Below, one piece after another: positions 3,940 to 34,642 of a stretch of 36,299 nucleotides of DNA. Source of the DNA: Thiocapsa sp. KS1 (lineage in GTDB: Bacteria; Pseudomonadota; Gammaproteobacteria; Chromatiales; Chromatiaceae); NCBI RefSeq assembly GCF_001499735.1, contig NZ_LN848257.1, positions 2,305,403 through 2,341,701 on the forward strand, written 5' to 3'. Every line of letters starts with the position of its first letter. Positions within the stretch are counted from its first letter, which is position 1. The notes below the pieces were generated by a model. It worked only from the letters and a program-made list of their open reading frames with translations, was not told where the DNA came from and made no database searches. Made by a program: the position numbers and the translations under genes.

Positions 3940-4413
3940 TCAAGGCGCGTCGAAATCATTTCCGACCAGCAGATTCGCCTCGGTCTGCGGGACGTGGCAC
4001 TGGGTACAGAAATAGCGGGTCCCGATGATCTTTTTCTCGACCGTACCCGGATCGCTGCGCAGGCTCACGTAATGACTCTCGGGCATCGGCGAGGGTTCGT
4101 CCGCGTCCTTGTCCTGGTCCCAGAGATCCTGGTCGTGATGACATTTCAGGCACTTGTTGTTCTTCAGCGTAATCAGTCCGGACTCCTCGATGCTGTGCGG
4201 GATCAAGGGCGGGGCATCCTCGAACGCGGTCGGCAAGGTCGAATCGGCATCCTCGGGATCGATCGAAAGATACTCGAAGCTCACCGGGTCGGGGGAATCG
4301 AAAACGGTCCCGGCCAGATCCTCGTCGATCCATGACAGGTCTTGTGCAAGGGCAAAGCTGCCGGCCAGAACGACCCCGGCGACGACCGCGAGGGAACGGG
4401 GAAGCATGATCAT
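3940..4413 (-). CDS. napB: NapB, diheme cytochrome c subunit of periplasmic nitrate reductase
   Basis: Small periplasmic electron-transfer subunit (157 aa) that passes electrons to NapA. A signal peptide covers about residues 1-23, ending ALAQ. Two CxxCH heme motifs are visible: CLKCH at 88-92 and CTQCH at 136-140. The upstream stretch PPLIPHSIE and the later PESHY fit the distal-histidine regions of NapB. The start ATG at 4413 overlaps the napH stop (ATGA) and is preceded by GGAGG at a good distance. It is the last recognisable nap gene of the operon. Confidence 0.96.
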   Translation of the reverse strand: MIMLPRSLAVVAGVVLAGSFALAQDLSWIDEDLAGTVFDSPDPVSFEYLSIDPEDADSTLPTAFEDAPPLIPHSIEESGLITLKNNKCLKCHHDQDLWDQDKDADEPSPMPESHYVSLRSDPGTVEKKIIGTRYFCTQCHVPQTEANLLVGNDFDAP

Positions 4414-5303
4414 GGGTTATCCTCCTTCATTATGAGCTTGGGATGCGCCGGGAACGAACCGGGACCTCGTTTGCTTAAGCGCCAACCGAATGTCAGGCTC
4501 TTCTCCGGGCAGATCGGGATACACCGCGCGCAATTCGTACAATCCCCCGAAAGGACCTGGCCATCCTGTACCAGGCGTTTGAGATTCAAGACCTGAGGCT
4601 CCGGGCAGATTGCTTGGCAATCCCCGCAGCCGGTGCAGGTGGCTTGGTCGAATTTGACCCTGACCTGGGCCGTGTGCCGTCCTACCAATGCATAAAAGGC
4701 ACCGAGTGGACAGAGGTGACCGCACCAACCGTGCTTCACGACCAGCCAATCGAACAAAAAGAGGCCGACCAATGCGGTCCAGCCCAAACCCAAACCGAAG
4801 ATGATCTCGCGATGCATGGCTCCGATCGGGCTGACCCATTCGAATGCCGGAAGCCCGATCAAGATCGACAGCAGCAGCGCGAGAGCCAGCACGGTATAGC
4901 GCAGGTGACGGGGAATCCCGAAGAGGTTCTTGCGCCAGGTCTTGCGATGCAATACGGCCGCGAAGTCGGTGACCATATTCACCGGACAGACCCAGGAGCA
5001 CCAGACCCTGCCGCCCAGGATCAAGAAAACGCCCAAAACGAGCGCAGCGCCAAGTAGAATCTCGACCTGGAGGGCGTGCCCCGTTAAAAGGATCTGAAGT
5101 GTCGCGAAGGGATCGGCGAGCGTCACCTGCCCGAGAACCTCCGACGCACTCAGGTTTCCGCTCAACATTGGGAGTCCGAATAAGGACCAGCCCCAATGCA
5201 GCGTGCCGAAGAACAGCAGCAAGACGCCGATCTGAACAACCCGCCGCAGGATCAAATAGCGCCAGCTCCAGAGGGCGGGCGTTGGCTGCCGATTCCTCGC
5301 CAT
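4410..5303 (-). CDS. napH: NapH, membrane quinol-oxidising ferredoxin
   Basis: Polytopic membrane iron-sulfur protein of 297 aa, which with NapG forms a quinol dehydrogenase feeding NapA/NapB. About four TM helices lie in the first 220 residues. The cytoplasmic motifs CSWVCPVN and CGHLCPLG are the CxxxCP signatures typical of NapH. Two [4Fe-4S] binding motifs follow near the C terminus (CTGCGDCQAICPEP and CTNCARCIPICPE). Its ATG directly follows the napG stop with no gap, and its TGA overlaps the napB start, so translation is probably coupled. No napC is present in the window, so NapGH is probably the main quinol route here. Confidence 0.95.
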   Translation of the reverse strand: MARNRQPTPALWSWRYLILRRVVQIGVLLLFFGTLHWGWSLFGLPMLSGNLSASEVLGQVTLADPFATLQILLTGHALQVEILLGAALVLGVFLILGGRVWCSWVCPVNMVTDFAAVLHRKTWRKNLFGIPRHLRYTVLALALLLSILIGLPAFEWVSPIGAMHREIIFGLGLGWTALVGLFLFDWLVVKHGWCGHLCPLGAFYALVGRHTAQVRVKFDQATCTGCGDCQAICPEPQVLNLKRLVQDGQVLSGDCTNCARCIPICPEKSLTFGWRLSKRGPGSFPAHPKLIMKEDNP

Positions 5304-6071
5304 CTAATACCCCGGCCCATTCAGATAATCCAACCCAGGCGCCTGACCCTGCGCCGGTGCGGAATCCATCTGTCCCTTCCGGGTGTCGCCTGGTCCCGAG
5401 CCGGGCGTCGTGCCGTCTGCCTGCTTCCAGCCCATCCTGAAATGGTCGCCGATCTTGCCCTGAATCAACTCGGCAGGAAGCACCTTGATGGCCGCGATCT
5501 CGGTCGGACAGGCGTTCTCGCAGATGCCGCAACCCGTGCAGCCTTCGCTGAGAACGATCGGCAGGAGCATGGCATGCTTGCTCAATTCACGCCGTCGTGT
5601 TTCGACGCGAATCGCCGTGTCCCGAAGCGGGCAGACCCGATAACAGATCTCGCAACGCAGGCCCTGCCAGGAGAGACAATGCTCGGTGTCGATAAAGGCG
5701 AGACCCATCCGCGAGTCCATGACATCCTCCAGTGCCGGGGAAAGCGCACCCGTCGGACAGGCGGCCTTGCATGGGATGTCGTGACAGAGGTAGCAGGGGA
5801 TCTGCCGCGGCTCGAAATAGGGCGTGCCCAGCGGGGCATGGTCGGCCAAGGCGGCCAGTGTCAAGGTGTCGTATGGACAGGCGACGACGCAACGTCCGCA
5901 TTTGATGCAGAGCGCATTGAAGTCCGCATCCGGAAGCGCACCGGGCGGGCGCAGGGCCAACGGCTCGGCGCGGGCGTTCTGAATGACGAGATACGACCAG
6001 AGCATGCCGCCGCTGGTCGTGACGGCCGCGCCTTGAATGGTCTTCTGTATGAAACCGCGCCGCGTGGTCAT
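5304..6071 (-). CDS. napG: NapG, periplasmic ferredoxin-type protein
   Basis: Periplasmic protein (255 aa) with four [4Fe-4S] clusters that works with membrane NapH. A Tat-type signal (TTRRGFIQK) lies at the N terminus. Cysteine clusters follow: CIKCGRCVVACP, CYLCHDIPCKAACP, CEICYRVCP and CTGCGICENACP. I chose the ATG at 6071 because it puts the twin-arginine motif at the usual distance from the start; an in-frame ATG at 6131 would add 20 residues, and neither has a clear ribosome site. The napA stop is 93 bases upstream. The C-terminal tail (about 220-255) is Gly/Pro rich. Confidence 0.94.
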   Translation of the reverse strand: MTTRRGFIQKTIQGAAVTTSGGMLWSYLVIQNARAEPLALRPPGALPDADFNALCIKCGRCVVACPYDTLTLAALADHAPLGTPYFEPRQIPCYLCHDIPCKAACPTGALSPALEDVMDSRMGLAFIDTEHCLSWQGLRCEICYRVCPLRDTAIRVETRRRELSKHAMLLPIVLSEGCTGCGICENACPTEIAAIKVLPAELIQGKIGDHFRMGWKQADGTTPGSGPGDTRKGQMDSAPAQGQAPGLDYLNGPGY

Positions 6072-6164
6072 GATCGGTGAGTCGCCGGACGTGATGAAAG
6101 CACTCGGCTCGCTCGGATGGGTACGACACATCCGAGCACTGTCGATGAACCCGACAAGGGCGCG

Positions 6165-8909
6165 CTACACCTTGTAGATCTTGATCGCGGTCTTTTTGAA
6201 GTCCTCTTCCTTGGAGATCGGACAGGTCGCATCGATGCAGAGCTTGTTGACGAACACCGACTCGTCGAAAAAGGCCATGAAGCTATAGCCGCGCGGTGGC
6301 CGATTACGGCCCGTGGTTTCGATCACCGCCTTGATCTTGCCCCGTCGTGATTCGATCCAGACCGTATCCTGACGTTTGAGACCGCGCGCCTCGGCATCCT
6401 TCTCGTTCATGTCCAGCACTGCCGCCGGCATAGCCCGATGCAGCTCCGGCACACGTCGCGTCATGGTGCCGGTATGCCAGTGCTCGAGCAAACGCCCGGT
6501 GCAGAGCCAGAGGTCGTAGTTTCCGTCGGGCGATTCGACCGGTGCGGCGTAAGGTCTGAAGAAGATCTTCGCCTTGCCGGGGAATTTGGTCTTCTCCTCG
6601 GTCGTTGGACCGTTCAGATTGCCGGTCACCAACTCCTTCATGGCGCCGCCGTAGAATTCGATCTCGCCGTTCTTGACATAGGGATCGTATTTGGCGTTGA
6701 AGCGCCATGGCGTCTCTTTGCCGTCGATCACCGGCCAACGCAGACCGCGTACGTCGTCCTGATAATAGACATCGAACGGCGCCAGATCATGGTGATGACC
6801 GCGCCCGAAGGCGGCGTATTCTTCAAATAGCGCCTTCTCGACAAACCAATCCACACCGAGATGCTTGACCGTGTGATTGTCGTGTCCCTTGGCGACGGGA
6901 TCGGGCCAGGCGAACGCCTTGTTCTCCGGTGTTTCGAAGAGCGCCTCATAGAGGGTCATCTCCGGTGTGTAGCCCATCTCCTGAGCAGCGGCCATCACAT
7001 CGGGGAGTTTTCCCTCCTCGAATCCCTCGTCTTTTAGGCCGGGAATGGGTTGCTCCTTCCAGACCTCCGCCAGGGTGATGCGTTTGGAGAATTCCAGGAT
7101 CTGCCACAGATCGCTGCGTGCCTCTCCCGGCGGTGGAACCTGCTCGCGCCAGAGCTGGGTACGGCGCTCGGCGTTCCCGTAGCCGCCCCATTTCTCGAAG
7201 ATCATGGCGACGGGCAGGATCAGATCGGCCACCTTGGCCGAGATGCTCGGATAGGCATCGGAGACGACGATGAAGTTGTCGTTCTCGCGTGCCGCCTTCA
7301 GCCAATGGTTGGCATTGGCGACATGCTGGAAGGGGTTGTTGACCTGCACCCAGACCCACGACATGGAGCCATCTTCCAGATCGCGCATGATCTTGGTGAT
7401 GTGACTCCCGGGTTTTGGATTGAGCGTCTTGGGCGGCAGCTTCCAGGTCTGCTCGGTGATGTCCCGGTGTTTGGCGATGTTGACGACCATGTCGGCCGGC
7501 AGACGATGACTGAAGGTGCCGACCTCGCGCGCGGTCCCGCAGGCGGAAGGCTGGCCGGTCAGGGAGAAGGGGCTGTTGCCGGGCTCGGCGATCTTTCCCA
7601 ACAGAAGATGCACGCTGTAGATCTGCTCGTTGACCCAGGTCCCACGCACATGCTGGTTGAAGCCCATAGTCCAGAAACTGACCAGCTTGCGCTTCGGGTC
7701 GGCGTAGAGATCCGCCAGACGCACGAGCTTGGCCTTGAAGGCATCCAAAGATTCTTCGGAGTCGCCCTTGGCCAGCTCGGCGACGAAATCCAGCGTGTAG
7801 GGCGCGACCCCGGCCTTGAAGTCCTCGAAACCGACCAGCCAGTGTCGGTCGGCCGTGGCCGCGTTGGCCTGTTTGATGGTGTGAACCTGCTCGGGATCCA
7901 GTCCGATGCCGATCGCCTCGTCCCGCGTCAGGGTCACCTCGACCTCGCGCGCCTGGATATCCTTTTCGGCTTCGAACGCGAATTTGTCGGTCGCACGCAT
8001 CCCGTAACCGATATCGGTCGGGCCGGCGCAGAAGACACAATGGGCATCGACGAAGGCTTGATTCACGGCATCGCGCTGGATGATCTCGCGCGCCAGGTAA
8101 TTGAGCAGCGCCATGTCGGTATTCGGCTTGATGATGATCTCGAGATCCGACCCTTCGGAGGTCATGTTCCGCAGGGTCGTGATGTTGACGATCTTCATGT
8201 CCGAATGGCCGAGGCGACGGTCGATGACACGCTGCCAGAGGACCGGATGGGCCTCGGCCATATTCGCGCCCCAAGCGACGACCGTATCCGTGTATTCGAT
8301 ATCGTCGTAATTGCCCGGCGGCTCGTCGATGCCGAAGACCTGCATGAATGCAGCCACGGCCGAGGCCATGCAATTGCGCGCATTGGGATCGATGTTGTTG
8401 CTGCGAAAACCGGCCTTCATCAGCTTGGTCATCGCATAGCCTTCCTGGATCAGCCATTGGCCGGAGCCGATGACGCCGATCCCGGTCGGTCCTTTTTCTT
8501 CGTAGGCTTTCTTGAACTGGATCGCCATCTCGTCGAAGGCCTGATCCCAGGTCACCGGGGTGAACTTACCCTTCTTGTCGAATCGCCCGTCGGTCATCCG
8601 CATCAAGGGCTGCGTCAGGCGATCCTTGCCGTAGAGGATCTTGCCGTTGAAGTAACCCTTCACGCAGTTCAGACCGCGATTGACCGGGGCGTCGGGATCA
8701 CCTTTGGTCGCGACGATCTTGCCGTCCTGCGTCGCGATCATGATGCCGCAGCCCACACCGCAGAAGCGGCAGACGCCTTTATCCCAGCGCCAGTCCTGCT
8801 CGGTCTCGGCCGCCGCTGCGCTGGCGACGCGGCTGATGGGTATTCCGACGGCCATGGCTGTCGCGGCAGCGACGCCCGACTTCAGAAAGTTGCGGCGACT
8901 GAGCTCCAT
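6165..8909 (-). CDS. napA: NapA, periplasmic nitrate reductase catalytic subunit (long type)
   Basis: Molybdopterin (bis-MGD) enzyme reducing nitrate to nitrite in the periplasm. The protein is 914 aa. It has a Tat signal (SRRNFLK, about residues 4-10), a [4Fe-4S] motif with Cys47, Cys50, Cys54 and Cys82, and the Mo-ligand Cys180 in ARNCMASAV. The start at 8909 is fixed by an excellent GAGGAGGAAT ribosome site; the frame stays open upstream to 9452 but that part overlaps napD. E. coli NapA is about 830 residues. The extra length sits mainly after GYGMRATD (about 35 residues) and in the C-terminal third. From memory, those insertions and blocks such as [19 protein letters not shown] and the ending [10 protein letters not shown] resemble the long NapA of Campylobacter and relatives. 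Confidence 0.97.
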
Positions 8910-18499: not shown

Positions 18500-19771
18500 A
18501 TGATGGATACCGGCGGACTTTCTCTCGATCAGGCTCCGCCGATCGACATCCCCGCGCGCTTCTTCCTGACCGCGCCGCTGTTTGCGATCGCCGCCGGACT
18601 GCTCTTAGCCTGGCAAGGCCCGACCCTCCTGGTCTCGCGCTGGATGCCCGGCGCGCTCGCCGCGACCCACCTGATCGCCATCGGTTACCTCGGCCTGATC
18701 ATGTGTGGCGCGCTGCTGCAGATGTTGCCTGTGATCGCCGGTGCGCCGGTGCCGGCGGTGCGACTGGTCGGCACCCTGACCCATCTCCTGCTCACCTGCG
18801 GTGCCGCCGGGTTGGCGTTGGGCCTGGGCGGCGGGGACTCTGCCGCTCTGCTGGCCGGCGGTGTCTCTGCCGGACTGGGTTTCCTGGCCTTCGTATTCCC
18901 CGCCGCCATCGCGCTGGTGCGGGCGCGCGGTGTGCCGGGCACGCTGCTCGCCCTGCGCGCAGCGGCGATTGCGCTGGTCGTGACGGTGATCCTGGGTCTC
19001 CTGCTGGTCGCCGTCGTCCTGGGTTGGCCGCGGCTGCCGGACTTTTCCCGTGCGGTCGATGCGCATGCCGCCTGGGGCCTGATGGGCTGGGTCGGACTGC
19101 TCGTCATAGGCGTGGCTATTCAGGTGCTGCCGATGTTCTATGTGACGCCGGCCTATCCTGCGCCGATGCGGCGGTGGCTAGCTCCCGCCCTCTTGATCGG
19201 GATCGCCGGGGCCAGTGTGGCCTGGATCATCGGCGATGCGCTTCTCGGTCGGCTGCTGTTCGGTGCGACCGGACTGGGTTTCGTGGGCTTTGCCGTGACG
19301 ACGCTTGTGCTGATCCGGCGCCGACAGCGGCCGCGGCTCGATCCGACTCTGATCCATTGGTGGTCGGCGATGCTGAGTCTCTGCATGGCGGCCGTCTCCT
19401 GGGCCTTCGCGGCGCCGCCGACGCTGGTCGGCGTGCTGCTGCTGGTCGGGTTGGGCGTCGGCCTGCCGGCAGGGATGCTGTTTAAGATCATGCCGTTCTT
19501 GACCTGGTTTCATCTCCAGCATCGTCAACTCGCCGCCGGGCGTTTCGATCTGCGCATCCCGCACATGGGCGGTCTGCTGTCGATCCGTTGGGCGCAGGCG
19601 CAGGTCGGCCTGCATCTGCTCGCACTGGGGCTGCTCTGCGGAGCGGTCTTCGTTCCGGCGCTGGCGCGACCGGGCGGCCTGATTCTCGCGCTGTCCTCGG
19701 CGGTGTTGCTGGTCCTGCTGATCGGTGTTGCACGCACCTATAGGCGCTTTGCCGAGCGCCTTGCACTGTGA
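18500..19771 (+). CDS. NnrS-like / heme-copper-oxidase-I-like polytopic membrane protein
   Basis: A 423-aa integral membrane protein with about 12 TM helices. Family-like blocks are HLIAIGYLGLIMCGALLQMLP (about residues 57-77), HAAWGLMGWVGLLVIGVAIQVLPMFYVTP and LPAGMLFKIMPFLTWFHLQ; conserved His residues in the first two could bind heme. Such proteins are found with hemerythrin/DUF2249 genes in denitrifiers and are related to NnrS and oxidase subunit I. The exact function (NO stress tolerance, heme/copper handling) is not known. The start ATG-ATG at 18500/18503 follows an A-run and has no ribosome site, because the 193-bp element ends just upstream. Confidence 0.8.
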   Translation: MMDTGGLSLDQAPPIDIPARFFLTAPLFAIAAGLLLAWQGPTLLVSRWMPGALAATHLIAIGYLGLIMCGALLQMLPVIAGAPVPAVRLVGTLTHLLLTCGAAGLALGLGGGDSAALLAGGVSAGLGFLAFVFPAAIALVRARGVPGTLLALRAAAIALVVTVILGLLLVAVVLGWPRLPDFSRAVDAHAAWGLMGWVGLLVIGVAIQVLPMFYVTPAYPAPMRRWLAPALLIGIAGASVAWIIGDALLGRLLFGATGLGFVGFAVTTLVLIRRRQRPRLDPTLIHWWSAMLSLCMAAVSWAFAAPPTLVGVLLLVGLGVGLPAGMLFKIMPFLTWFHLQHRQLAAGRFDLRIPHMGGLLSIRWAQAQVGLHLLALGLLCGAVFVPALARPGGLILALSSAVLLVLLIGVARTYRRFAERLAL

Positions 19772-19927: not shown

Positions 19928-20452
19928 ATGTTCAAAGAAGAACGCACCGAATCCCGCTTCGACTGGTCGATGCTCGGCAACCTCGACGAGGGTCGGCCCA
20001 ATCTGGGCGATTCCATGAATGTTGCCGTCTACCGGCTGATGCAGTTCACGCTGCGCGATGTCATGATCCAAAAACTCGGTGTCTCGGAAGCCGATCATTT
20101 GTTCTACGACGCGGGCAAACGGGCGGGCGAGGAGTTCTACAAAAACGTCCTGACGCAAAAGCACGACTTCCAAGCCTTCGTGGCCGATCTTCAGGACTCG
20201 CTCAAACAGTTGAACATCGGCATCCTCCGTGTGGAGAAGGCCGATCTGGATCAACTGCGGTTTACGCTGACGGTCGCGGAAGATCTCGATTGCTCCGGTA
20301 TCCCGGTCTGCGGCGAGCAGGTCTGCACCTACGATGAAGGCTTCATTCACGGACTGCTCACATCCCACACGGGCCGCGAGTTTCAGGTCCGCGAGGTCGA
20401 TTGCTGGGCCTCCGGCGATCGGGTCTGCCGCTTCGAGGCACAGGCGCTTTGA
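19928..20452 (+). CDS. V4R-domain sensor protein
   Basis: A 174-aa protein with a V4R (4-vinyl reductase) fold, a ligand-binding domain related to heme-NO-binding and BchJ-like proteins. Typical elements are RLMQFTLRDVMIQKLG, LFYDAGKRAGEEFYKN and the C-terminal CTYDEGFIHGLL...CWASGDRVCRFE, with several Cys (CSGIPVCGEQVC, DCWASGDRVC) that could bind metal. I start at ATG 19928, since the upstream in-frame extension to 19844 looks non-coding; ribosome-site support is weak. It ends 22 bases before a SiaA-like phosphatase gene that has no membrane sensor of its own, so this protein is the likely input module. The ligand is unknown. Confidence 0.85.
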   Translation: MFKEERTESRFDWSMLGNLDEGRPNLGDSMNVAVYRLMQFTLRDVMIQKLGVSEADHLFYDAGKRAGEEFYKNVLTQKHDFQAFVADLQDSLKQLNIGILRVEKADLDQLRFTLTVAEDLDCSGIPVCGEQVCTYDEGFIHGLLTSHTGREFQVREVDCWASGDRVCRFEAQAL

Positions 20453-20474
20453 CGGCCACACGGAGCCACCGCGC

Positions 20475-21671
20475 ATGATCCAGGTCGATATCGGCGATCT
20501 CGATCGGCTCACCGAGGCGAGCTATCGGATCCTGCGCGGCGAAAAACCGCCGCTTCTGGAGCTGCCGCCCGAGTACCCGGACAACGAGTTTCGTCAGTTC
20601 GTCGAGTACTTCAACCGGCTGATCGGCGAATACACCCTGTTCGCCGATTTCATGTATGCGATGGCGCGCGGTGAGCTGGACTACGAGCCGCCGGCCAGCA
20701 AGATGCGCGTCGTGCAGTCGTTCAAGAGCCTGCAGGCCAATCTGCGTCATCTCACCTGGAAGACCCAGCAGATCGCCGCCGGCGATCTGACGCAGCGGGT
20801 CGACTTCATGGGCGACTTCTCGGCCGCCTTCAACGAGATGACACGCCAGTTGGAGCAGGCGTTCGCGGATGTGAGCGCGGAGAAAGAGCGCTCGGATCAG
20901 CTCCTGCTGCGCGTGACCGACAGCATCCAGTACGCCCAGCGCATCCAATCGGCACTGCTGCCGGCGGATACGGCGTTCGGTCCGGCCGGGGTCGAGGGAA
21001 TCAGTCTCTGGCTGCCGCGCGATATCGTCGGCGGGGATCTCTTCTGCGTCGAAACCTGTCCCGCCGGCGTGCTGGTGGCGCTCCTGGATTGCACCGGCCA
21101 TGGCGTGCCCGGCGCCCTGATGTCGATGCTTGCGGTGGCCGGTCTGCGACGCCTGATCCAGGATGAAGCCTGCCATGCGCCTGCCGACCTACTCCACGGC
21201 ATGAATGACTGGGTCAAAACAACCCTGCGACAGGAAACCGACGAGAGCCCGTCGGACGACGGCCTGGATGCGGCCATCTGCCTGCTGCGTCCGGATGCGG
21301 GCGAGCTGATCTTCGCCGGGGCGCACCTGCCGCTCTACCGGATGCACGACGGCGCGCTCGAGGTGATCCGCGGCGACCGGCCGAGTCTGGGCTACAAGCG
21401 CTCACGCAGCGACGTCGTCTTCACCAGCCACAGCTTCCCGCTGGATCCGGGCAGCGTCTTCTATCTCTGCTCGGATGGTCTCCTGGATCAGCCCGGTGGC
21501 TCGCGCGGACTCCCGTTGGGCCGGTCGGGCTTCAGGCGGATGGTCGAGGCGATTTGGGATCAGCCGCTCGCAACACAGCGGGCGCACATCGAGGCCGCGT
21601 TCCTGGCCCATGCGGGTGAGTACGAGCGGCGCGACGATGTGACGCTCCTCGGCTGGCGGGCGCTCGCATGA
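20475..21671 (+). CDS. SiaA-like PP2C/SpoIIE phosphatase with HAMP-like segment
   Basis: A 398-aa protein. An N-terminal helical domain (1-95) leads to a HAMP-like helix pair (about 98-130; IAAGDLTQRVDFMGDFSAAFNEM) and a coiled coil (127-160). The SpoIIE/PP2C phosphatase domain follows, with metal ligands Asp188 in VGGDLF and Asp205 in DCTGHGVPGALMSM, plus DDGLDAAI and CSDGLLDQ. In Pseudomonas, SiaA dephosphorylates SiaC, releasing it to activate the diguanylate cyclase SiaD. Genes like siaD, siaC and siaB lie just downstream on the other strand. Unlike the Pseudomonas protein it has no TM helices, so it should be cytoplasmic. CGGAG at 20461-20465 supports the start. Confidence 0.88.
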   Translation: MIQVDIGDLDRLTEASYRILRGEKPPLLELPPEYPDNEFRQFVEYFNRLIGEYTLFADFMYAMARGELDYEPPASKMRVVQSFKSLQANLRHLTWKTQQIAAGDLTQRVDFMGDFSAAFNEMTRQLEQAFADVSAEKERSDQLLLRVTDSIQYAQRIQSALLPADTAFGPAGVEGISLWLPRDIVGGDLFCVETCPAGVLVALLDCTGHGVPGALMSMLAVAGLRRLIQDEACHAPADLLHGMNDWVKTTLRQETDESPSDDGLDAAICLLRPDAGELIFAGAHLPLYRMHDGALEVIRGDRPSLGYKRSRSDVVFTSHSFPLDPGSVFYLCSDGLLDQPGGSRGLPLGRSGFRRMVEAIWDQPLATQRAHIEAAFLAHAGEYERRDDVTLLGWRALA

Positions 21672-21693
21672 ATCGGTGAGCCTCGAGCGCCCT

Positions 21694-22800
21694 TCACTCG
21701 GCAAGGTGTGCGATCACCCGATTGCGTCCGCTGCGCTTGGCCTCGTAGAGGGCCTGATCGGCCAGCTTCAACAGGGCGCCGATGGCGACCTGGCTGGTCG
21801 GCATGGTGCAGGTGCCGATGCTCACGGTAAAGCTCAGCATCGTGCCGTCCGGCATGGGCAGATAGGTTTGCTCGATGCTCCGGCGCAGCCGCTCGGCCAC
21901 GTCCTGCGTGGTCTCCGGGCTTGAGCTCGGCAACAGGATCGCGAACTCCTCGCCGCCGAGGCGGCCGATCAGGTCACCTTCGCGAAACTGTTTACGACAC
22001 AGACGCGATAAGGCCCGCAGCACCTCGTCGCCGATGTCGTGGCCATAGCTGTCGTTGATGCGCTTGAAGTGGTCGGCGTCCAGCATCAGGAGACCCATGT
22101 GCTGGTCCGAACGGCGACGGCGTTGCAGCTCATGCTCGCACAGCTCAAGGAAATGCCGACGGTTCAGCAGACCGGTCAGACCGTCGGTGGTCGCCAGATA
22201 ACGGAGCTCGTCCACCATGCGCTTGCGCTCGGTGATGTCCGAGAGGATGCCCTCCACGATCATGATCGGGGCGCTGTGGTCGTCCGCATGGGCGTGGGCG
22301 TTGATCTCGACCCAGATAATGCTGTCGTCCTTATGGAGCATCCGGGTCTGCAGGCGGGTCGCGCTGCCGTGCTCGGCCAGGTTGGCGATGAAACGCTCCT
22401 TCTCGGACTCGTCCAGGAAGGGCCAGAGCTCGTCTTCTTCGTGGACGCGCAGGAACTCCAACGGGGTGCCGTAGCCCAGCGTGTGCGCCATCGCCGGATT
22501 GACATCCAGGAATCGGCCGCTCAACTGAGCGATGAAGATGCCTTCGCTCACATTGTCGAAGAGCGAACGGTACTTCAGCTCGCTCTTGCGCAGACGGTCG
22601 TTGAGATGGTTGAGCTCGATCTGCATGCGGTCGCTGACCTTGATCAGCGAGCGCACGTGACGCAGCAGACGGCTGTACTGACCGGTCAGCTCGGCGAAGG
22701 GTTCGGACGCATCGCCGAGTCTTCCGGACGTCAAGAGATCCTCGGCGGCACGCAAGGTGCGCTCTTCGCCGTCGAGCAACCCCGGTGCGGGCGGTGTCAC
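21694..22800 (-). CDS. PAS-GGDEF diguanylate cyclase (SiaD-like)
   Basis: A 368-aa soluble enzyme making c-di-GMP. An N-terminal helical/coiled-coil region (1-70) precedes a PAS domain (about 72-195: YRSLFDNVSEGIFIAQLSG, GILSDITERK) and a GGDEF domain (about 205-366) with the active-site motif GGEEF. An RxxD inhibitory site (REGD) sits five residues before it, so product inhibition is expected. The GTG start at 22800 overlaps the siaC-like stop (GTGA), which indicates tight coupling; SiaC-type proteins bind and activate SiaD. The PAS domain is an addition relative to Pseudomonas SiaD, as I remember it. The gene is convergent with the siaA-like gene (22 bases between stops). Confidence 0.92.
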   Translation of the reverse strand: MTPPAPGLLDGEERTLRAAEDLLTSGRLGDASEPFAELTGQYSRLLRHVRSLIKVSDRMQIELNHLNDRLRKSELKYRSLFDNVSEGIFIAQLSGRFLDVNPAMAHTLGYGTPLEFLRVHEEDELWPFLDESEKERFIANLAEHGSATRLQTRMLHKDDSIIWVEINAHAHADDHSAPIMIVEGILSDITERKRMVDELRYLATTDGLTGLLNRRHFLELCEHELQRRRRSDQHMGLLMLDADHFKRINDSYGHDIGDEVLRALSRLCRKQFREGDLIGRLGGEEFAILLPSSSPETTQDVAERLRRSIEQTYLPMPDGTMLSFTVSIGTCTMPTSQVAIGALLKLADQALYEAKRSGRNRVIAHLAE

Positions 22801-23198
22801 GGGCGGGCCTCCAGCTCGACGAGACGAAACTCGACCGCGGTCAGCTCTTCACTGAAATCCTCGCCGCACTCCAGCGCCGTCTCGTTTTGCGGATCGTAAC
22901 GCCAGGTCACGCGGATCGACGCGCCGTTGCGTGCGGCGAGATCCAACAGATCAAGCAGATTCAGGATCACCTTGGTGCTGCTGCTGTTGAGATAACCGAT
23001 CTCGAGCTCGACTTCGACGGATTCTCCGGGTTGCAGGGCGTCGAGCAGCGCCTGCACCCATGCGAAGACCGGGGCGTAGAAGGCTGCGGCATTCTCCGGA
23101 TAGGACTCGCCCCTCAGCATGAGGCAACGCGCTGCCGCGTCAAACCGGATCTCGGGCGAGGAGCGCGTCGCTTCGATGATTAAGTCTTCCATTCGCAT
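22797..23198 (-). CDS. SiaC-like regulator (DUF1987)
   Basis: A 133-aa protein of the SiaC/DUF1987 family, with a STAS-like partner-switch fold. The key block is EIGYLNSSSTKVILNLLDLL: the Thr in SSSTK (about Thr75) corresponds to the threonine phosphorylated by SiaB and dephosphorylated by SiaA in Pseudomonas. Unphosphorylated SiaC activates the cyclase. ATGs at 23198 and 23192 are both possible; I used the first. It lies 13 bases after the siaB-like gene and overlaps the cyclase gene by a GTGA junction. Confidence 0.9.
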   Translation of the reverse strand: MRMEDLIIEATRSSPEIRFDAAARCLMLRGESYPENAAAFYAPVFAWVQALLDALQPGESVEVELEIGYLNSSSTKVILNLLDLLDLAARNGASIRVTWRYDPQNETALECGEDFSEELTAVEFRLVELEARP

Positions 23199-23211
23199 AA
23201 TCTCGTGTGCG

Positions 23212-23757
23212 TCAGATCGTGACGCTCAGGCTGAAGAAGGCGAACCGATCATCGATATCGGTCAAGGTGTAGAGCAATGGCCCGCTGGATTTACGTGCCA
23301 TCTCGATCAGACCCAGGCCGCCGCCGCCGGCAGCGGTGAGCGGCTCGCGCATCTGCCGGCGCTGCAGGGCCTTGAGCTCCGCCTTGTCGAGCCCGCTCAG
23401 ATGCTCCAGATGCGCGACCAGGCCGGGCGCGTCCGCGCGGTCGATCAGATTGCCCGAGCTGACGATATAACGGCCGTCGTCATGGGCGATGACGACGATA
23501 CCGGAATGACGCAGTTGGGCATGATCCGGATGCTGCTCCCAGCGCTTGATGTAGTTGCGCACGTTCTGCGCCTGCTCGATATAGATCGCGAAGACATCCA
23601 TGAGCGAAGAGCGCGCCAGGCTGGCGTCTTCCAAATAGTTTTTCACCGCATGACCGAGCTCTTCGATGATGCTGTGCGAGAAGGGGCCGCTGAAGCTCAT
23701 CAGGATGCCCTGGTGACTCAGTTGGCGCTGCAGTTGAACGAGATCGAGCTTGTCCAT
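23212..23757 (-). CDS. SiaB-like kinase (SiaB family)
   Basis: A 181-aa cytoplasmic protein of the SiaB family, a small GHKL-type kinase that phosphorylates SiaC on threonine. Visible features are ILMSFSGPFSHSIIEELGHAVKNYLE, FAIYIEQAQNVRNYIKRWE, and a Gly-rich ATP-lid-like stretch AAGGGGLGLIEMARKS (about 145-160). ATG 23757 is chosen because the family N terminus (DKLDLVQLQRQL) starts there, with GAGACA upstream. It is the first gene of siaB-siaC-siaD on the minus strand, facing the V4R-siaA pair. Confidence 0.87.
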   Translation of the reverse strand: MDKLDLVQLQRQLSHQGILMSFSGPFSHSIIEELGHAVKNYLEDASLARSSLMDVFAIYIEQAQNVRNYIKRWEQHPDHAQLRHSGIVVIAHDDGRYIVSSGNLIDRADAPGLVAHLEHLSGLDKAELKALQRRQMREPLTAAGGGGLGLIEMARKSSGPLLYTLTDIDDRFAFFSLSVTI

Positions 23758-24204: not shown

Positions 24205-24846
24205 TCAATGCTCGCCCTTGGTGCGCAACAATCCGGCCAGGCGGTTGCCTTGCTTCTGCGGACCACCGCGCGGGAAGAGGCGATGCAGGTAGCGATTGCT
24301 GCCCTTCTCGCTGCCCCAGACCTTGCGAAAATGGGCAATCATGTCGCGCACCATGGCCTGGGTGCCATGCTTGGCATAACTGGCTCTCAGGAAGCGGATG
24401 ACCTCCCAGTGCTCGGCGTTCAGCTCGAGTCCGTCGTACTCAGCCAGGGCGCGGGCGAATTCCTCCGACCAATCCGACGGATCCACGAGATAGCCTTCGC
24501 TGTCGGTGAGGATCTCACGGGAACCGACCTGGATGCTGCGGGTCGTCATGTTGGGATAGGCGTTGCTGCCGGAGGGGAACTCGCCCGGCAGGCCCTTCGA
24601 GTCGCGCTCGGATTGGGTAATCGACCAAAGCTCGATCGGGATCTCGCCGTCTAGGCGCCCGTCGAAACGCTCCACACCGGACACCAGCACCTTGCCGCTG
24701 GTCGGCGGCAGATCGAAGCGCGCCACGCCCGCGCGGTCGGTAAGGACAGGCGCCGTCTCGGACCCGTCCGCGTCCAGCCTGAGGACCACGGGGGTGCGTT
24801 TCAGCGGCTCGTTCGTGACCTTCATGGACACCTTTACGTCGATCAT
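24205..24846 (-). CDS. Cysteine-less DsrC-like (RspA-type) protein with N-terminal beta-sandwich domain
   Basis: A 213-aa protein with two parts. Residues about 112-209 match the DsrC/TusE family (DSEGYLVDPSDWSEEFARALA, ELNAEHWEVIRFLR, NRYLHRLFPRGGPQKQ). However, both redox cysteines of DsrC are missing: the usual KQACKIAG is KQGNRLAG, and the C-terminal Cys-Val is replaced by GEH. It therefore cannot carry sulfur as DsrC does and resembles the cysteine-free RspA branch, thought to be regulatory. Residues 1-105 look like a beta-rich Ig/transthyretin-like domain (VVLRLDADGSETAPVLTDRAG, ARFDLPPTSGKVLVSGVERF). No signal peptide is seen. It is divergent from a LysR gene, which probably controls it. 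Confidence 0.8.
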   Translation of the reverse strand: MIDVKVSMKVTNEPLKRTPVVLRLDADGSETAPVLTDRAGVARFDLPPTSGKVLVSGVERFDGRLDGEIPIELWSITQSERDSKGLPGEFPSGSNAYPNMTTRSIQVGSREILTDSEGYLVDPSDWSEEFARALAEYDGLELNAEHWEVIRFLRASYAKHGTQAMVRDMIAHFRKVWGSEKGSNRYLHRLFPRGGPQKQGNRLAGLLRTKGEH

Positions 24847-24936: not shown

Positions 24937-24953
24937 TATCGCGTTTCTCGATA
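24937..24953. promoter_or_regulatory. Candidate LysR-type operator in the divergent promoter region
   Basis: TATCG-CGTTTCT-CGATA is a perfect 5-bp inverted repeat with a 7-base spacer, the general shape of LysR-regulator sites. It lies between the DsrC-like gene (start 24846) and the LysR gene (start 25048). On the minus side, TATAGA near 24880 could be the -10 of the DsrC-like gene. Assignment is by position and symmetry only. Confidence 0.45.
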
Positions 24954-25047: not shown

Positions 25048-26004
25048 ATGGACATTGAACAGGTCAGAACCTTCTTGGCGGTCGCCGCGCACGGGAGCTT
25101 CCAAGAGGCAGCCAACCGCGTGCACGTCACCCAATCTACGGTCAGCGCGCGCATTCAGGGCCTCGAGAATTACCTGAATGCCCGGTTGTTCGTGCGCAAC
25201 CGCGCGGGCGCGACACTGACGCCCGCGGGACGGCGGTTCCTTCGGCACGCCAAGACCCTGGTGCTCACACTCGAGCAGGCACGCCACGACGTGGGTCTGC
25301 CGAGCCGCTTTCGGGCCAGCATCACGGTCGGTGCCCGTATCGCCTTGTGGGACGGTTTCCTGCCGCTCTGGGCCGGGCGGATGCGCGAGCTTGCCCCGGA
25401 CGTCTCGCTGAGCAGCGAGATCGGTTTCGAGGACGATCTGATGCGGCGTATCGTCGAAGGCACGCTGGACCTTGCCTTGATGTACACGCCCCAGCACAGC
25501 GCCGGGCTGCAAGTCGAGCACCTGTTCGACGAGACCCTGGTCCTGGTAACCAGCGACCCGAAACGCACCGAGCTGGACGACGGTTATGTCTACGTGAGCT
25601 GGGGGCCGACCTTCTACGCCCAGCACAGCAAGGTCTACCCGGATCTGGAGCGACCGGCCCAGATGGCGAACATCGGCTGGCTCGGTCTGCAGTTGATTCT
25701 GGCCAACGGCGGGACCTGCTTCGTCCCCGAGCGGGTCGCTGCACCTTACGTGCGCGCAGGATGCCTGCACTTCGCGCCCGACAGCCCGAGGTTTCTGTTG
25801 CCGGCCTATGTGGTCTATCCCTTGGAAAGCGAATCGCCCGTGCTCGAGACGGCGTTGTCGACGCTGCGCACCATCATCAAAGAGCGATCGCCTGCCGACG
25901 GCGGCACGCCGACAGAATGCACGCCCGAGCCGATCGCCGTGTCGGGACACCCGCCGGAGCAGCCGCATGCACCTGCCCCGGCTCCCGAGTCGACGCTGAA
26001 TTGA
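25048..26004 (+). CDS. LysR-family transcriptional regulator
   Basis: A 318-aa regulator. The N-terminal winged helix-turn-helix (2-60) is classic: DIEQVRTFLAVAAHGSFQEAANRVHVTQSTVSARIQGLE. The effector domain (about 90-290) follows (ITVGARIALWDGFLPLW, GTLDLALMYTP, LFDETLVLVTSDP). A Pro/Ala-rich tail (about 295-318) is unusual and looks disordered. ATG 25048 is chosen because LysR proteins start MDIEQ-like; ATG 25027 is the alternative. It is divergent from the DsrC-like gene, its probable target. Its stop overlaps a possible TTG start of a downstream frame. Confidence 0.92.
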   Translation: MDIEQVRTFLAVAAHGSFQEAANRVHVTQSTVSARIQGLENYLNARLFVRNRAGATLTPAGRRFLRHAKTLVLTLEQARHDVGLPSRFRASITVGARIALWDGFLPLWAGRMRELAPDVSLSSEIGFEDDLMRRIVEGTLDLALMYTPQHSAGLQVEHLFDETLVLVTSDPKRTELDDGYVYVSWGPTFYAQHSKVYPDLERPAQMANIGWLGLQLILANGGTCFVPERVAAPYVRAGCLHFAPDSPRFLLPAYVVYPLESESPVLETALSTLRTIIKERSPADGGTPTECTPEPIAVSGHPPEQPHAPAPAPESTLN

Positions 26005-29216: not shown

Positions 29217-29409
29217 TAAACCACGTCCAGAGCGGGATGCTCATTTTCGAGTGAGCTTGACGTTTGGTGTATCGACAACCATTAGCGGGTACGCGGTTTA
29301 AAATAATATATTTTTTAATATCTTAAACCGCGCCGGCTCCGACGGCCGTCAAGTCTGCCGGGGCAAATCCCATCCTAAAACTTCGCATACCGCGCTGGGC
29401 GCGGTTTAA
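29217..29409 (-). repeat. 193-bp MITE-like repeat element, copy 2 (inverted)
   Basis: The reverse complement aligns end to end with the copy at 18302-18494: it begins TTAAACCGCGCCC, holds the same AT-rich hairpin (GGCGCGGTTTAA ... TTAAACCGCG) and ends GGACGTGGTTTA. The same length and end points show that this is a defined element. The norD stop codon (29406-29408) is inside its TTAAACC end. Confidence 0.85.
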
Positions 29410-31244
29410 GCCGTCAGCCGCGCATAAAGAACCGGGAGCTGCGCCGGAAGCTCTGTAGGCCGGCGGATGACGACATAGCCGCCGGTGCCGAAGAGGTGGG
29501 GGAGATAGTCGTTGCCGCGCTCGTCGATGGTGACGCAGAAGCAGGTCAGGCCGAGGGCACGGGCTTCCTGGACGGCGCGGCGGGTGTCTTCGATCCCGTA
29601 GCGGCCTTCGTAGCGGTCGAGGTCGTTGGGTTTGCCGTCGGAGAGGATCAGCAGGAGACGGCGGCCGCCCGGCTGCGCGGCGAGCAGGCGAGTCGAGTAG
29701 CGGATGGCAGCGCCCATGCGGGTGTAATAGCCAGGCTTGATGGCGGCGATGCGCCCGCGCACGCCGGCGCCGTGCGGCTCCTCGAAGTCCTTCAGACTGT
29801 GAATGCGCACCGGGTCGCGACGGCGCGAGGAGAAGCCGAGCATGCCGAAGCGATCGCCGGTCGCGGCCAGGCTCTCGGCGAAGAGAAAGAGACTGTCGCG
29901 GATGACATCGATAACCCGTGCGCGATCGTCCACCCAGGTGTCGGTCGAGAGCGACAGATCCGAGAGCAGCAGACACACCAGATCGCGCGCCCCCTTGCGC
30001 ATGTCGCGATAGAGTCCGTCCGCATGGGTGCCGGCACCGGCTTGGCGGTCCGTGGCGAAACGCAGATAGGCGTCCAGATCGATCTCCTGTCCATCGGACT
30101 GGCCGCGCTGCCAGACCCGCGCCGGGGCGAGGGCTTGGAACTGGTGGCGCAGCCGATGGGCCGTGCGGCGCAGGTGCTCGGGCAGCTCGCAGGGTGTGGC
30201 GTCCGCGGCGATCAGCGGGACCACGCGACACTGATTCGGGCAAAGTGTGCCCTCTCGCCAGTCCCACTCGGGCAAGAGGATCCCCTCCGAGAGGACCAGG
30301 TCGTCCTCGGACTCGGCCGGCAGATCCAGATCAAATTTCAGACGCGCGCCGGATGCCTTACGGTCGCGCGCGACCGAGATGCGATCCAGATCGGCGGCGG
30401 CGGTGCGGGCGCGCTCGAGATCGTCCTCCTCGTCGGTCCCGCGGTCGACCTGCACATGCTCGCCCCAGGTGAGGATGTTCTCCATTCGGATCGTGATCAG
30501 CCCCTGGTCCTTCTCCGGCATGGCGACCCGCTCGGCACGTCGCCGACGGCGCTCGCCGAGCGACTCGACAGCGGCATCGCGATCGATGTCCTGCGCGTCG
30601 CCGCCGGATGGATCGGACCAGGCGCCTGCGGGGAGCCCGGGATCCGGATGCAGCCAGAGGATGACCGGATACGGCGGACGGCGCGCTGTCGGGAGCCGCG
30701 CGACACTGCCGGGATCCTCCAGCGCAAGACGGATGGCCTCTTCGCGCGCACGCTCGTCCGCCGGCAGGGCACGCGGATCCGGGCGTAGGTCGAGATGGGC
30801 ATTGAGCAGCCGCCGGTAGCGCGGGCGCAGGCCCGGAAATCGCGAGAGCGTCCGACGGGCCTGGTCCTGACTCTCGAGGAGCCAATCTCGGGTCGGGCCT
30901 GTTTGCCGTGCCGCGAGCGCGGCGAGCCAGATGTAGAGATCGCGATTGAGCGCACGCTCAGGGAAGAGGTCGATCCGGGCGGGTAGACGCAAGGAGCGCT
31001 CGTCGCGCCAGGCCAGCTCGACCTTGTCGTCGAGCCCGGCGAGTCGTTGTAGGAACCCGCGACGCGCGCCGTGATCGCACGCCTCCGCCGCTTCGACCTG
31101 GAGTCCGCCGTCGCCGCCCAGAGCACGGAAGAAGATCGCGATGGGGACGGCCACCTCTTCGAGCGTCACCGCCGCAAAGGGGTGCCGCCGCTCCGAGAGA
31201 CGGGTGATGGCGCGATGCCAGAGTGCTCCGACTTGTTCTTCCAT
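29406..31244 (-). CDS. norD: NorD, von Willebrand factor A protein for nitric oxide reductase activation
   Basis: A 612-aa cytoplasmic protein. NorD works with the MoxR-type ATPase NorQ to activate nitric oxide reductase, probably in metal insertion. The C-terminal VWA domain (about 410-612) has the MIDAS motif in LLLSDLSLSTDTW, plus GMLGFSSRRRDPVRI, RMGAAIRYSTRLL and LLILSDGKPNDLDRYEGRYG, all typical of NorD. The N-terminal 400 residues are helical with an Arg/Glu-rich middle. I use ATG 31244; a TTG at 31259 is also possible. It ends inside the 193-bp repeat, whose TTAAACC supplies the TAA stop. It is the last gene of the nor accessory cluster. Confidence 0.92.
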   Translation of the reverse strand: MEEQVGALWHRAITRLSERRHPFAAVTLEEVAVPIAIFFRALGGDGGLQVEAAEACDHGARRGFLQRLAGLDDKVELAWRDERSLRLPARIDLFPERALNRDLYIWLAALAARQTGPTRDWLLESQDQARRTLSRFPGLRPRYRRLLNAHLDLRPDPRALPADERAREEAIRLALEDPGSVARLPTARRPPYPVILWLHPDPGLPAGAWSDPSGGDAQDIDRDAAVESLGERRRRRAERVAMPEKDQGLITIRMENILTWGEHVQVDRGTDEEDDLERARTAAADLDRISVARDRKASGARLKFDLDLPAESEDDLVLSEGILLPEWDWREGTLCPNQCRVVPLIAADATPCELPEHLRRTAHRLRHQFQALAPARVWQRGQSDGQEIDLDAYLRFATDRQAGAGTHADGLYRDMRKGARDLVCLLLSDLSLSTDTWVDDRARVIDVIRDSLFLFAESLAATGDRFGMLGFSSRRRDPVRIHSLKDFEEPHGAGVRGRIAAIKPGYYTRMGAAIRYSTRLLAAQPGGRRLLLILSDGKPNDLDRYEGRYGIEDTRRAVQEARALGLTCFCVTIDERGNDYLPHLFGTGGYVVIRRPTELPAQLPVLYARLTA

Positions 31245-31303
31245 CGTTTTGGCGGACAACCCTTGCGTTGAAGGACGTCCGATCCCGCCGAGATGGCCTG
31301 GAT

Positions 31304-32894: not shown

Positions 32895-33761
32895 CTAGAC
32901 GAGTGTCGCATCGATCACCTCCGCGAGTGCCGCAATGGTCTCGGCATCGTCGGTCAAGGGCTCGACCAGCGCGGCGAGACAGGCGTCGCGTGGGTCCATG
33001 CCGGCCTGGATCAGGGTCGCCGCATAGACGAGCAATCGCGTCGAGACGCCTTCCTCCAGATCGTGGTCCTTGAGTACGCGCAGCGAGCCGGCAATCCGCA
33101 CCAGCAGCTCGGCCCACGCGCTGTCGATCCCGGTCTCGCCGATGAGGATCGCGACCTCCAGGCGCGGCGCGAGAAAGCCGAGTGTGACGGCAACGAAGCG
33201 CTGGCGCGTGCTCGGCTTCATCCCCTTGAGCAGGTTCTGATAGCCGGGATTGTAGGAGACGACCAGCATGAATCCGGGCGGCGCTTGCAGCGTCTCGCCG
33301 GTGCGCTCCAACGGCAGGATACGTCGATCGTCGGTGAGCGGATGCAGCACCACCGTGGTGTCCTTGCGCGCCTCAACCACCTCGTCGAGATAGCAGATGG
33401 CGCCCTCGCGCACCGCACGCGTGAGCGGACCATCGCTCCAGAAGGTCCCCTCGGCGCCGATCAGATGACGCCCCACCAGGTCCGCCGCGGTCAGATCGTC
33501 ATGACAGGCGACGGTGTAGAGCGAGCGCGCCAGGCGCTCGGCCATATAGCGCACGAAGCGGGTCTTCCCGCAGCCCGTCGGCCCCTTGATCATCACCGGC
33601 AGACGATTGTGGAAGGCGTATTCGAAGAGCGCGACCTCGCGGCCTTGCGGCTTGTAAAAAATGGACTCGCGCTCCGTCTCGCCGGACGCCTGCGCCGCGT
33701 GACCGGCCATCGCGCCGGTATTCGGAATCGAGATCGGACGAACGGCGTGTCTGGATGTCAT
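32895..33761 (-). CDS. norQ: NorQ, MoxR-type AAA+ ATPase
   Basis: A 288-aa AAA+ ATPase of the CbbQ/NirQ/NorQ group. Walker A is KGPTGCGKTRF, Walker B is GAICYLDEVVEA, and sensor-type residues follow in MLVVSYNPGYQ; TRQRFVAVTLGF is the arginine-finger region. It acts with the VWA protein NorD as a chaperone pair activating NO reductase. CbbQ (RuBisCO activation) is nearly the same in sequence, but the neighbours norE, norF and norD decide in favour of NorQ. ATG 33761 is used. Six bases separate its start from the stop of the norF-like gene. Confidence 0.92.
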   Translation of the reverse strand: MTSRHAVRPISIPNTGAMAGHAAQASGETERESIFYKPQGREVALFEYAFHNRLPVMIKGPTGCGKTRFVRYMAERLARSLYTVACHDDLTAADLVGRHLIGAEGTFWSDGPLTRAVREGAICYLDEVVEARKDTTVVLHPLTDDRRILPLERTGETLQAPPGFMLVVSYNPGYQNLLKGMKPSTRQRFVAVTLGFLAPRLEVAILIGETGIDSAWAELLVRIAGSLRVLKDHDLEEGVSTRLLVYAATLIQAGMDPRDACLAALVEPLTDDAETIAALAEVIDATLV

Positions 33762-33767
33762 CTGTGC

Positions 33768-34061
33768 TCAACCGGCGAGTGTGAAGGCGATGGTGATCAG
33801 GGTTCCCGGGATCAACAGCCACAGGAGAATGACGAACCGCCAGGGTCCGCGTAGGCCCTTCAAACCCATAAAGAAATCGCCGATGAGCTGACCCTTGATC
33901 AAGGCAAAGCCCAGGACGAGCAGCGACAAGACCAATGCCCTGCTTCCGGAGAGCAGGTCGAAATGGCCGAGGGCGAAGGTCACCAGCGTCAGCACGACGA
34001 GCAGCAGATAGACCCGTGTGCAGGGACGCATCGCGGTTTGCGTTGTCATGACGGCATTCAT
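33768..34061 (-). CDS. norF: NorF-like / cytochrome c oxidase subunit IV-like protein
   Basis: A 97-aa membrane protein with three TM helices (VYLLLVVLTLVTFALGHF, ALVLSLLVLGFALIKGQLIG and RFVILLWLLIPGTLITIAFT). The motif FALIKGQLIGDFFMGL is typical of the small subunit-IV-like proteins that accompany NorE. In nor clusters this partner is called NorF. The ATG at 34061 overlaps the norE stop (ATGA); a second in-frame ATG at 34049 is possible. Confidence 0.85.
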   Translation of the reverse strand: MNAVMTTQTAMRPCTRVYLLLVVLTLVTFALGHFDLLSGSRALVLSLLVLGFALIKGQLIGDFFMGLKGLRGPWRFVILLWLLIPGTLITIAFTLAG

Positions 34062-34642
34062 CGCATCACATAGACCAAGGGGAAGAGAATAAGCCACACC
34101 AGATCGACCATATGCCAATAAACACCGCCGGTCTCCATGCCGGTATGCTCGCCCGCAGAGTAAGCCCCTTGGTGCGTCTTCAACGCCACCGCCGCCAGGA
34201 TCACCATACCAAGCACGACATGCAGGAAATGGAAGAAGGTCAAGGAGAGATAAAACATATAAAAGGTGTTGCTGCTCAGCCGCACACCTTCGCCGAAATG
34301 GTGGACATACTCCGCCGATTTGACGAACAGAAACAGGCCGCCCATGGCCAGTGCGGCAAGCAGCCAACGCACGCTCGTTTTGCGGTGATCCTCGCGGATC
34401 GCCGCAAGGGCGCGCACCACGAAATAGCTGCTGGTGATCAGGGCCAGGGTGTTGATCAGCGCTGCGCCCTTATCGAGCGTGGCCTGGTATTCATTGAACA
34501 TCGCCACGTCGCCCATGCGCGCGAAGGCATAGGAGGCGAAAAAGATGGCGAAGACCGCCAGCTCGGCGAGGATGAAGATCCAGATCGCCAAATCACCCGG
34601 CGGGTAACGGACGGGCGGTGCTGCCGTGAGCGTTGCGGACAT
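34058..34642 (-). CDS. norE: NorE, cytochrome c oxidase subunit III-like protein
   Basis: A 194-aa five-TM protein of the heme-copper oxidase subunit III family. Typical blocks are LAIWIFILAELAVFAIFFASY, KGAALINTLALITSSYFVVRA, KSAEYVHHFGEG, SLTFFHFLHVVLGMV and YWHMVDLVWLILFPLVYV. At 194 residues it fits NorE rather than the longer oxidase CoxC, and a subunit-IV-like gene and norQ follow. NorE supports full NO reductase activity in Paracoccus and Rhodobacter. It is the first gene of the cluster, with a perfect FNR box about 98 bases upstream. Confidence 0.9.
   Translation of the reverse strand: MSATLTAAPPVRYPPGDLAIWIFILAELAVFAIFFASYAFARMGDVAMFNEYQATLDKGAALINTLALITSSYFVVRALAAIREDHRKTSVRWLLAALAMGGLFLFVKSAEYVHHFGEGVRLSSNTFYMFYLSLTFFHFLHVVLGMVILAAVALKTHQGAYSAGEHTGMETGGVYWHMVDLVWLILFPLVYVMR

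Follow-up and report, generated by a model that had tools for sequence, protein, structure and literature searches.

What can a DsrC-like protein do when it has lost the cysteines of DsrC, and what does it gain from an additional N-terminal domain? These questions are raised by a gene of the minus strand at 24205..24846 of the window, i.e. the whole stretch of 36,299 nucleotides of Thiocapsa sp. KS1 DNA analysed here. This ATG-start open reading frame encodes 213 amino acids; we named its family KGEH, after the terminal residues.

The C-terminal half is a DsrC domain (residues 101–213; 24208..24546, minus strand), recovered by Pfam, phmmer and Foldseek. The Pfam profile DsrC PF04358 matches residues 107–208 (E 5e-33, 114 bits for a cut-off of 24.9) and is the sole domain in the Pfam scan of the protein; among the NCBIfam profiles, TIGR03342 also matches this half. 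The closest solved relative is the A. vinosum DsrC 1yx3 (phmmer E 3.7e-20). Foldseek aligns the C-terminal half of the predicted model with 1yx3 at 40% identity (E 1.9e-8), and six further DsrC-family chains match at E ≤0.001. By profile and fold, the protein thus belongs to the DsrC/TusE structural family PF04358. It has neither the two redox cysteines that a functional DsrC bears on its C-terminal arm nor the penultimate cysteine of a functional TusE: these positions are occupied by Asn201 (KQGNRLAG) and Glu212 (KGEH), and the window's protein contains no cysteine at all, while 25 of the 72 full-length fusions have one to four elsewhere in the sequence. The initial annotation, which had recognised a DsrC fold deprived of both cysteines, was right on this point.

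It had also considered that close relatives might keep the cysteines. None of them does: Asn201 and Glu212 are found without exception in the 74 aligned sequences (the window and 73 of the 80 loci kept), so that a sequencing error or a recent mutation is excluded; the loci outside the alignment (L009, L014, L026, L051, L066, L079 and L081) have tails of identical pattern. The whole C-terminal arm, FPRGGPQKQGNRLAGLLRTKGEH (24208..24276, minus strand), is near-invariant and its tail GGPQKQGNRLAGL..KGEH almost constant; the alignment has 28 invariant columns, including G194 to L203, G205, K210, G211 and E212, with H213 close to invariant. In the accessible text of PMC3397948, DsrC is said to carry sulfane sulfur via its penultimate cysteine. 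As this cysteine is absent, KGEH cannot transport sulfane sulfur in the DsrC style, and an arm so constant without sulfur chemistry rather suggests a role in binding.

The N-terminal domain, first described as about 105 residues long, is real and conserved in the 72 full-length fusions, but its folded part is shorter. The AlphaFold2 model, built on the 74-row alignment (mean pLDDT 88.9), displays six strands within residues 2–73, then a linker and the DsrC fold; pLDDT is below 50 at residues 81–87 of the linker, so that the folded part would cover about 77 residues, not 105. The final residues of the model are also poorly scored (block mean 38). We thus distinguish a predicted beta-sandwich (residues 1–77; 24616..24846, minus strand) from a linker (residues 78–100; 24547..24615, minus strand) delimited by the model and the alignment and ending in an AYPNM motif; the short forms of the family start close to this motif. 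When the two halves are searched separately, as initially proposed, the C-terminal part is DsrC and the N-terminal part reaches no family model above cut-off: residues 1–105, searched by themselves, have no Pfam or NCBIfam match up to E 1, profile searches gave no solved relative at E <0.4, and CarboxypepD_reg is touched by 2 of 25 family members (E ≤0.01; best E 0.0039). Foldseek consistently, if weakly, returned transthyretin, hydroxyisourate hydrolase and CnaB folds (best E 8.9e-3, about 20% identity), none of them at E ≤0.001. Of the initial guess of an Ig/transthyretin-like sandwich, the six predicted strands stand; the kinship with transthyretin, 5-hydroxyisourate hydrolase, CnaB or CarboxypepD_reg, which share the predicted beta-sandwich, is plausible, not proven.

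One scan of public genomes yielded 364 relatives, from which 80 loci were kept; 72 are full-length fusions, L081–L087 are devoid of the extra domain and L079 begins at a contig end. KGEH fusions occur commonly among Chromatiaceae and their relatives, so the idea that the fusion is unique to the window's genome is rejected; it is a widespread conserved family and no oddity of Thiocapsa sp. KS1. In a maximum-likelihood tree of 110 domains all KGEH sequences form one clade (support 100/99, 60 rows), which takes in one degenerate row, L169_8905, from a tandem DsrC-like copy adjoining a KGEH fusion (L169:8905-9372). Fusions and short forms are mixed within this clade: the fusion label needs four changes, at least two of them forced, in a tree that rests on few columns and is uncertain in its details. 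As the two forms are not cleanly split, repeated gain or loss of the N-terminal domain is probable. The sister group (100/89) is a second cysteine-free DsrC paralogue, ending in RKGGY, that we call KGGY. Of the 15 dsr regions fetched, 12 hold it; wherever the piece also includes dsrC, the two genes are about 6–7 kb apart on opposite strands. Thiocapsa sp. KS1 has one (L003:1501-1812, i.e. C1:4881408-4881719); the other KGGY loci are L176-L179, L181-L186, L189, L190 and L224, and one more gene (L221) comes from a genome with no dsrA match (G296).

Who carries KGEH? We scored the best 8 candidates per genome in a class sample of 370 genomes, the best 20 in an order sample of 147 and the best 10 in a phylum sample of 299. 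In the class, 19 genomes carry KGEH (7 fusions and 12 short forms), clearly separated by score: at least 172 bits for KGEH, at most 123 for DsrC/TusE. All 19 have dsrA, found in 123 of the 370 genomes (Fisher p 3e-10), although in two carriers, G195 and G205, it was seen only as fragments below cut-off. In the order, the 50 carriers are all dsrA-positive, as compared with 133 of the 147 genomes overall; in the phylum, KGEH occurs in the window's genome and in two others, both dsrA-positive. The three samples, to which the dsrA tests were confined, thus contain 69 different carrier genomes, 69 of them with dsrA, these genomes being related and their species not independent points. Whether all carriers are sulfur oxidisers, as the initial annotation wondered, can be answered at the level of the gene: every sampled carrier has dsrA. 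In genome G717 dsrA and the short KGEH gene even share a strand, some 10 kb apart, and the latter adjoins a tetrapyrrole methylase gene, an arrangement that ties KGEH to the Dsr side too.

How donor and acceptor are matched in nitrate-using sulfur oxidisers is, to our knowledge, not well understood. KGEH is a concrete candidate for this link: its sampled carriers are all dsrA-positive, it often follows nar operons, and it has the look of DsrC without its chemistry. We tentatively favour, with a confidence slightly short of even, that KGEH works as a DsrC-like regulator or adaptor without redox function and links Dsr sulfur oxidation to the metabolism of nitrogen oxides, through a partner and a mechanism that we infer. 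The protein would be made under anaerobic or nitrogen-oxide conditions; its arm would bind a protein partner and carry no sulfur, the transthyretin-like domain might be a second binding module, and KGEH would adjust Dsr-based sulfur oxidation (the donor side) to the metabolism of nitrate, nitrite and NO (the acceptor side).

How far does KGEH resemble known proteins? We set it against 20 two-cysteine DsrC and 7 TusE-like sequences, one alignment column at a time. With 1yx3 it shares the predicted fold, W126, W147, R154, R167 and the KQxxRxAG framework of the arm. It differs from DsrC by Asn and Glu at both cysteine positions, by one Gly inserted before GP (the extra glycine at 194), by a tail without the prolines of LPKPTGCV, by the N-terminal domain added in the fusions and by segment 160–177, near-invariant in two-cysteine DsrC and replaced in KGEH. 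TusE has the same domain, but KGEH scores 94.6 bits with NF008562, below the cut-off of 191, and the TusE-like sequences compared retain the penultimate cysteine where KGEH has Glu212. KGEH proteins might even be dedicated dead DsrC copies, produced along with the enzymes of nitrate, nitrite and NO, that occupy the place of DsrC in the reverse sulfite reductase or in its delivery proteins. While nitrogen oxides are being dealt with, such copies would act as a gate on sulfur oxidation, or protect the siroheme against nitrite and NO; the sulfur and nitrogen cycles would then be linked by a protein, to which the transthyretin-like module would bring a second partner. We estimate this possibility at about one chance in four. 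The initial annotation had imagined a mimic that competes with DsrC or binds its partners, and had not foreseen the nitrogen-oxide company; the change of segment 160–177 weakens the idea of a plain mimic acting on all the partners of DsrC. The partners of DsrC may not be those of KGEH, and a conserved surface, as an argument for common partners, is not supported, since this segment differs.

Cysteine-free DsrC proteins are in themselves a known kind: Venceslau et al. in 2014 reportedly named an RspA type, for which a regulatory role is said to have been proposed. KGEH resembles it by the DsrC fold and the absence of both conserved cysteines; RspA may denote the KGEH family, the KGGY paralogue of the dsr clusters, or both. 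Apparently undescribed are the transthyretin-like fusion, the separate clade formed by KGEH and its position behind nar operons: the open-access literature searched offered no description that we recognised, either of this fusion or of nar operons with a cysteine-free DsrC. Several extra DsrC-family genes of A. vinosum and Thiocapsa bogorovii are mentioned, with no function given in the accessible text (PMC3368242, PMC10892978).

KGEH might also act on DNA. The divergent LysR-family regulator that the initial annotation assigned to the fusion is indeed there (25048..26004, plus strand, with HTH_1 and LysR_substrate matches), and such a gene is divergent in 27 of the 72 full-length loci. The intergenic region contains a palindrome, ATCG-N7-CGAT (24938..24952, no strand assigned), presumed to be the LysR operator; in the form ATCG-N5-8-CGAT it occurs in 26 of the 27 divergent LysR regions, window included, for a mean of 1.3 and at most 4 in dinucleotide shuffles, a comparison that is not an independent test since it was in these very sequences that the palindrome had first been noticed by eye. 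Upstream of the KGEH genes we also searched an FNR-like box, using an FNR-type consensus: 5 of 71 have it without mismatch and 14 with at most one (three of the latter, L008-L010, being close relatives with one mismatch each). The shuffles gave 0.03 and 0.7 respectively, pieces taken inside the gene 0/70 and 2/70, and the other genes of the same loci 7/620 and 26/620 (p 1e-5). The window's own site has more than two mismatches. We count both the palindrome and these boxes in favour of the adaptor or regulator proposed above. A role in transcription regulation has been put forward for DsrC itself, as a putative one in the accessible text of PMC7787665. This and the LysR linkage would agree with KGEH being a DNA-binding or transcription-level regulator, alone or with LysR, of nitrogen-oxide or sulfur genes. 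We find this unlikely: no LysR was matched in the pieces fetched around the short forms placed after nar, DsrC is the only domain that Pfam finds, and the invariant arm seems to resemble one inserted into a protein. As to expression, Alvin_0028, judging by the position of the gene in G391 probably the KGEH fusion gene of A. vinosum, is reported in the accessible text of PMC11267869 to rise about 2-fold on pyrite; this rise does not discriminate between the readings.

The neighbour genes were analysed in 17 kb pieces, some shortened by contig ends, around 26 short loci, namely 11 of the 12 short-form carriers of the class (the twelfth lying at a contig end), two phylum carriers and 13 further loci of the order, and around 14 fusion loci, with 15 two-cysteine dsrC loci and 25 random pieces at round positions as controls. 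A nitrogen-oxide gene was found in 20/26 short loci (one of which, L155, rests on a weak 31% NirB match) and 7/14 fusion loci, versus 1/15 for dsrC and 2/25 for random pieces. In 16 of the 26 short loci a narI match lies within 0.8 kb upstream on the same strand, the gap of about 0.7–0.8 kb in L144 and L151 leaving room for another gene; in three others, nirB-nirD-nasA-type genes precede the short gene. The locus checked by Pfam (L141:1737-9338) reads on one strand narG, narH, narJ, narI, the short KGEH gene, then an FKBP-type isomerase. Such places, this isomerase and genes close to some fusions that we take to be MoeA- and MoaD-like, could point to a maturation or assembly helper of nitrate reductases and other molybdoenzymes, for which the DsrC fold would merely be a scaffold. 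But the same operon already holds narJ, the usual chaperone, KGEH is found in none of the nine dsrA-negative narG genomes of the order, and fusions are often near genes for NnrS or HPP, neither of which is a molybdoenzyme; we hold this explanation for quite improbable.

In the 80-locus set, made of shorter pieces, 30 loci have a nitrogen-oxide gene, and 45 when HPP and CBS genes are added, which we tallied apart as their link to nitrite transport is only presumed. Within 1.2 kb of the 72 fusions we counted LysR 29 times, HPP 15, NnrS 10, CBS 8, Rrf2 6, NtrC-type 2 and NorD 1; at least one of HPP, NnrS, CBS, Rrf2 and NorD is so close in 30 fusions, none in 42. The window itself is a nap/nor-type island. 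Its minus strand encodes napA, the periplasmic nitrate reductase (6168..8909; NapA model 1319 bits, cut-off 904), napG (5304..6131; 308 bits, cut-off 269), a ferredoxin membrane protein with Fer4_5 that we take to be NapH-like (4410..5303), a VWA protein, presumably NorD-like, without NCBIfam match (29406..31259), a CbbQ/NirQ/NorQ-type AAA protein (32895..33761) and a COX3-family protein, presumably NorE-like (34058..34642). Two hemerythrin domains and a SCO1/SenC protein are also encoded.

At the scale of genomes, narG is present in 33 of the 147 of the order, and KGEH in 23/24 genomes with both dsrA and narG, 0/9 with narG but no dsrA and 27/109 with dsrA but no narG. The two forms differ: narG occurs in 16/19 short-form genomes (among which G473, a partial match to residues 120–213, was classed) versus 7/31 fusion genomes, 17 of these 31 having narG or napA. 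The tie to nitrogen is strong in short forms, but only partial in fusions. In the class, narG is found in 10 of the 19 carriers versus 10 of 61 dsrA-positive non-carriers (61 of 104 such genomes were analysed), so that 10 of 20 genomes with dsrA and narG are without KGEH. This, together with the absence of both narG and napA in 15 of the 50 order carriers and the lack of association with napA (92/147 overall; 34/50 carriers versus 58/97 others, p 0.37), would suit a paralogue of general structural use, or of the sulfur pathway, without any particular nitrogen-oxide tie, whose neighbourhood would reflect regulon clustering only. So would G391, probably A. vinosum, which possesses the fusion without nap or nar: no recognised nitrogen gene adjoins it, and its neighbours look by eye like a potassium transporter and gyrB. 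For A. vinosum, no genes of nitrate reduction are reported in PMC3368242, which lists subunit B of a nitric oxide reductase and NarX/NarL. We nevertheless give this general role a small probability, given the enrichment of the neighbours over the dsrC and random controls, the narG/dsrA pattern in the order and the FNR-like boxes. As for the adaptor or regulator that we favour, these counts and G391 speak against it, as do the 42 fusions without any of the counted families so close, and the carriers without nitrate reductase disfavour a purely nitrate role. Finally, a decaying pseudo-paralogue or an artefact, which the loss of both redox cysteines might evoke, is refuted by the near-invariance of the arm in 74 sequences, with no stops in the listed fusion matches, and has practically no chance of being true.

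A few minor observations can be added. The open reading frame at 18500-19768 of the window resembles a membrane protein and matches nothing in Pfam or NCBIfam; its assignment as NnrS is unsupported, having no Pfam match, and a relative of it sits directly downstream of the fusion in L008-L010. Adjoining the fusion gene, 20334-23757 holds genes for a SpoIIE phosphatase, a GGDEF-PAS protein, SiaC and DUF6272, which we take to be a Sia-type signalling cluster. Of 42 pattern hits in viral_contigs, tblastn confirmed none, and the plasmid matches (15 records, eight annotated tusE) cover at most 48% of the query. In L062 and L071 the KGEH fusion is accompanied by an adjacent second family member encoded on its strand. 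The genome of Thiocapsa sp. KS1 has seven DsrC-family matches in all, including genes with odd C-termini (L004-L007, e.g. YYCHSC in L004); its assembly reaches 10.4 Mb in 43 contigs, with a stated contamination of 1.13%, compared with 4.0–5.7 Mb for the eight other members of the genus in the order sample.
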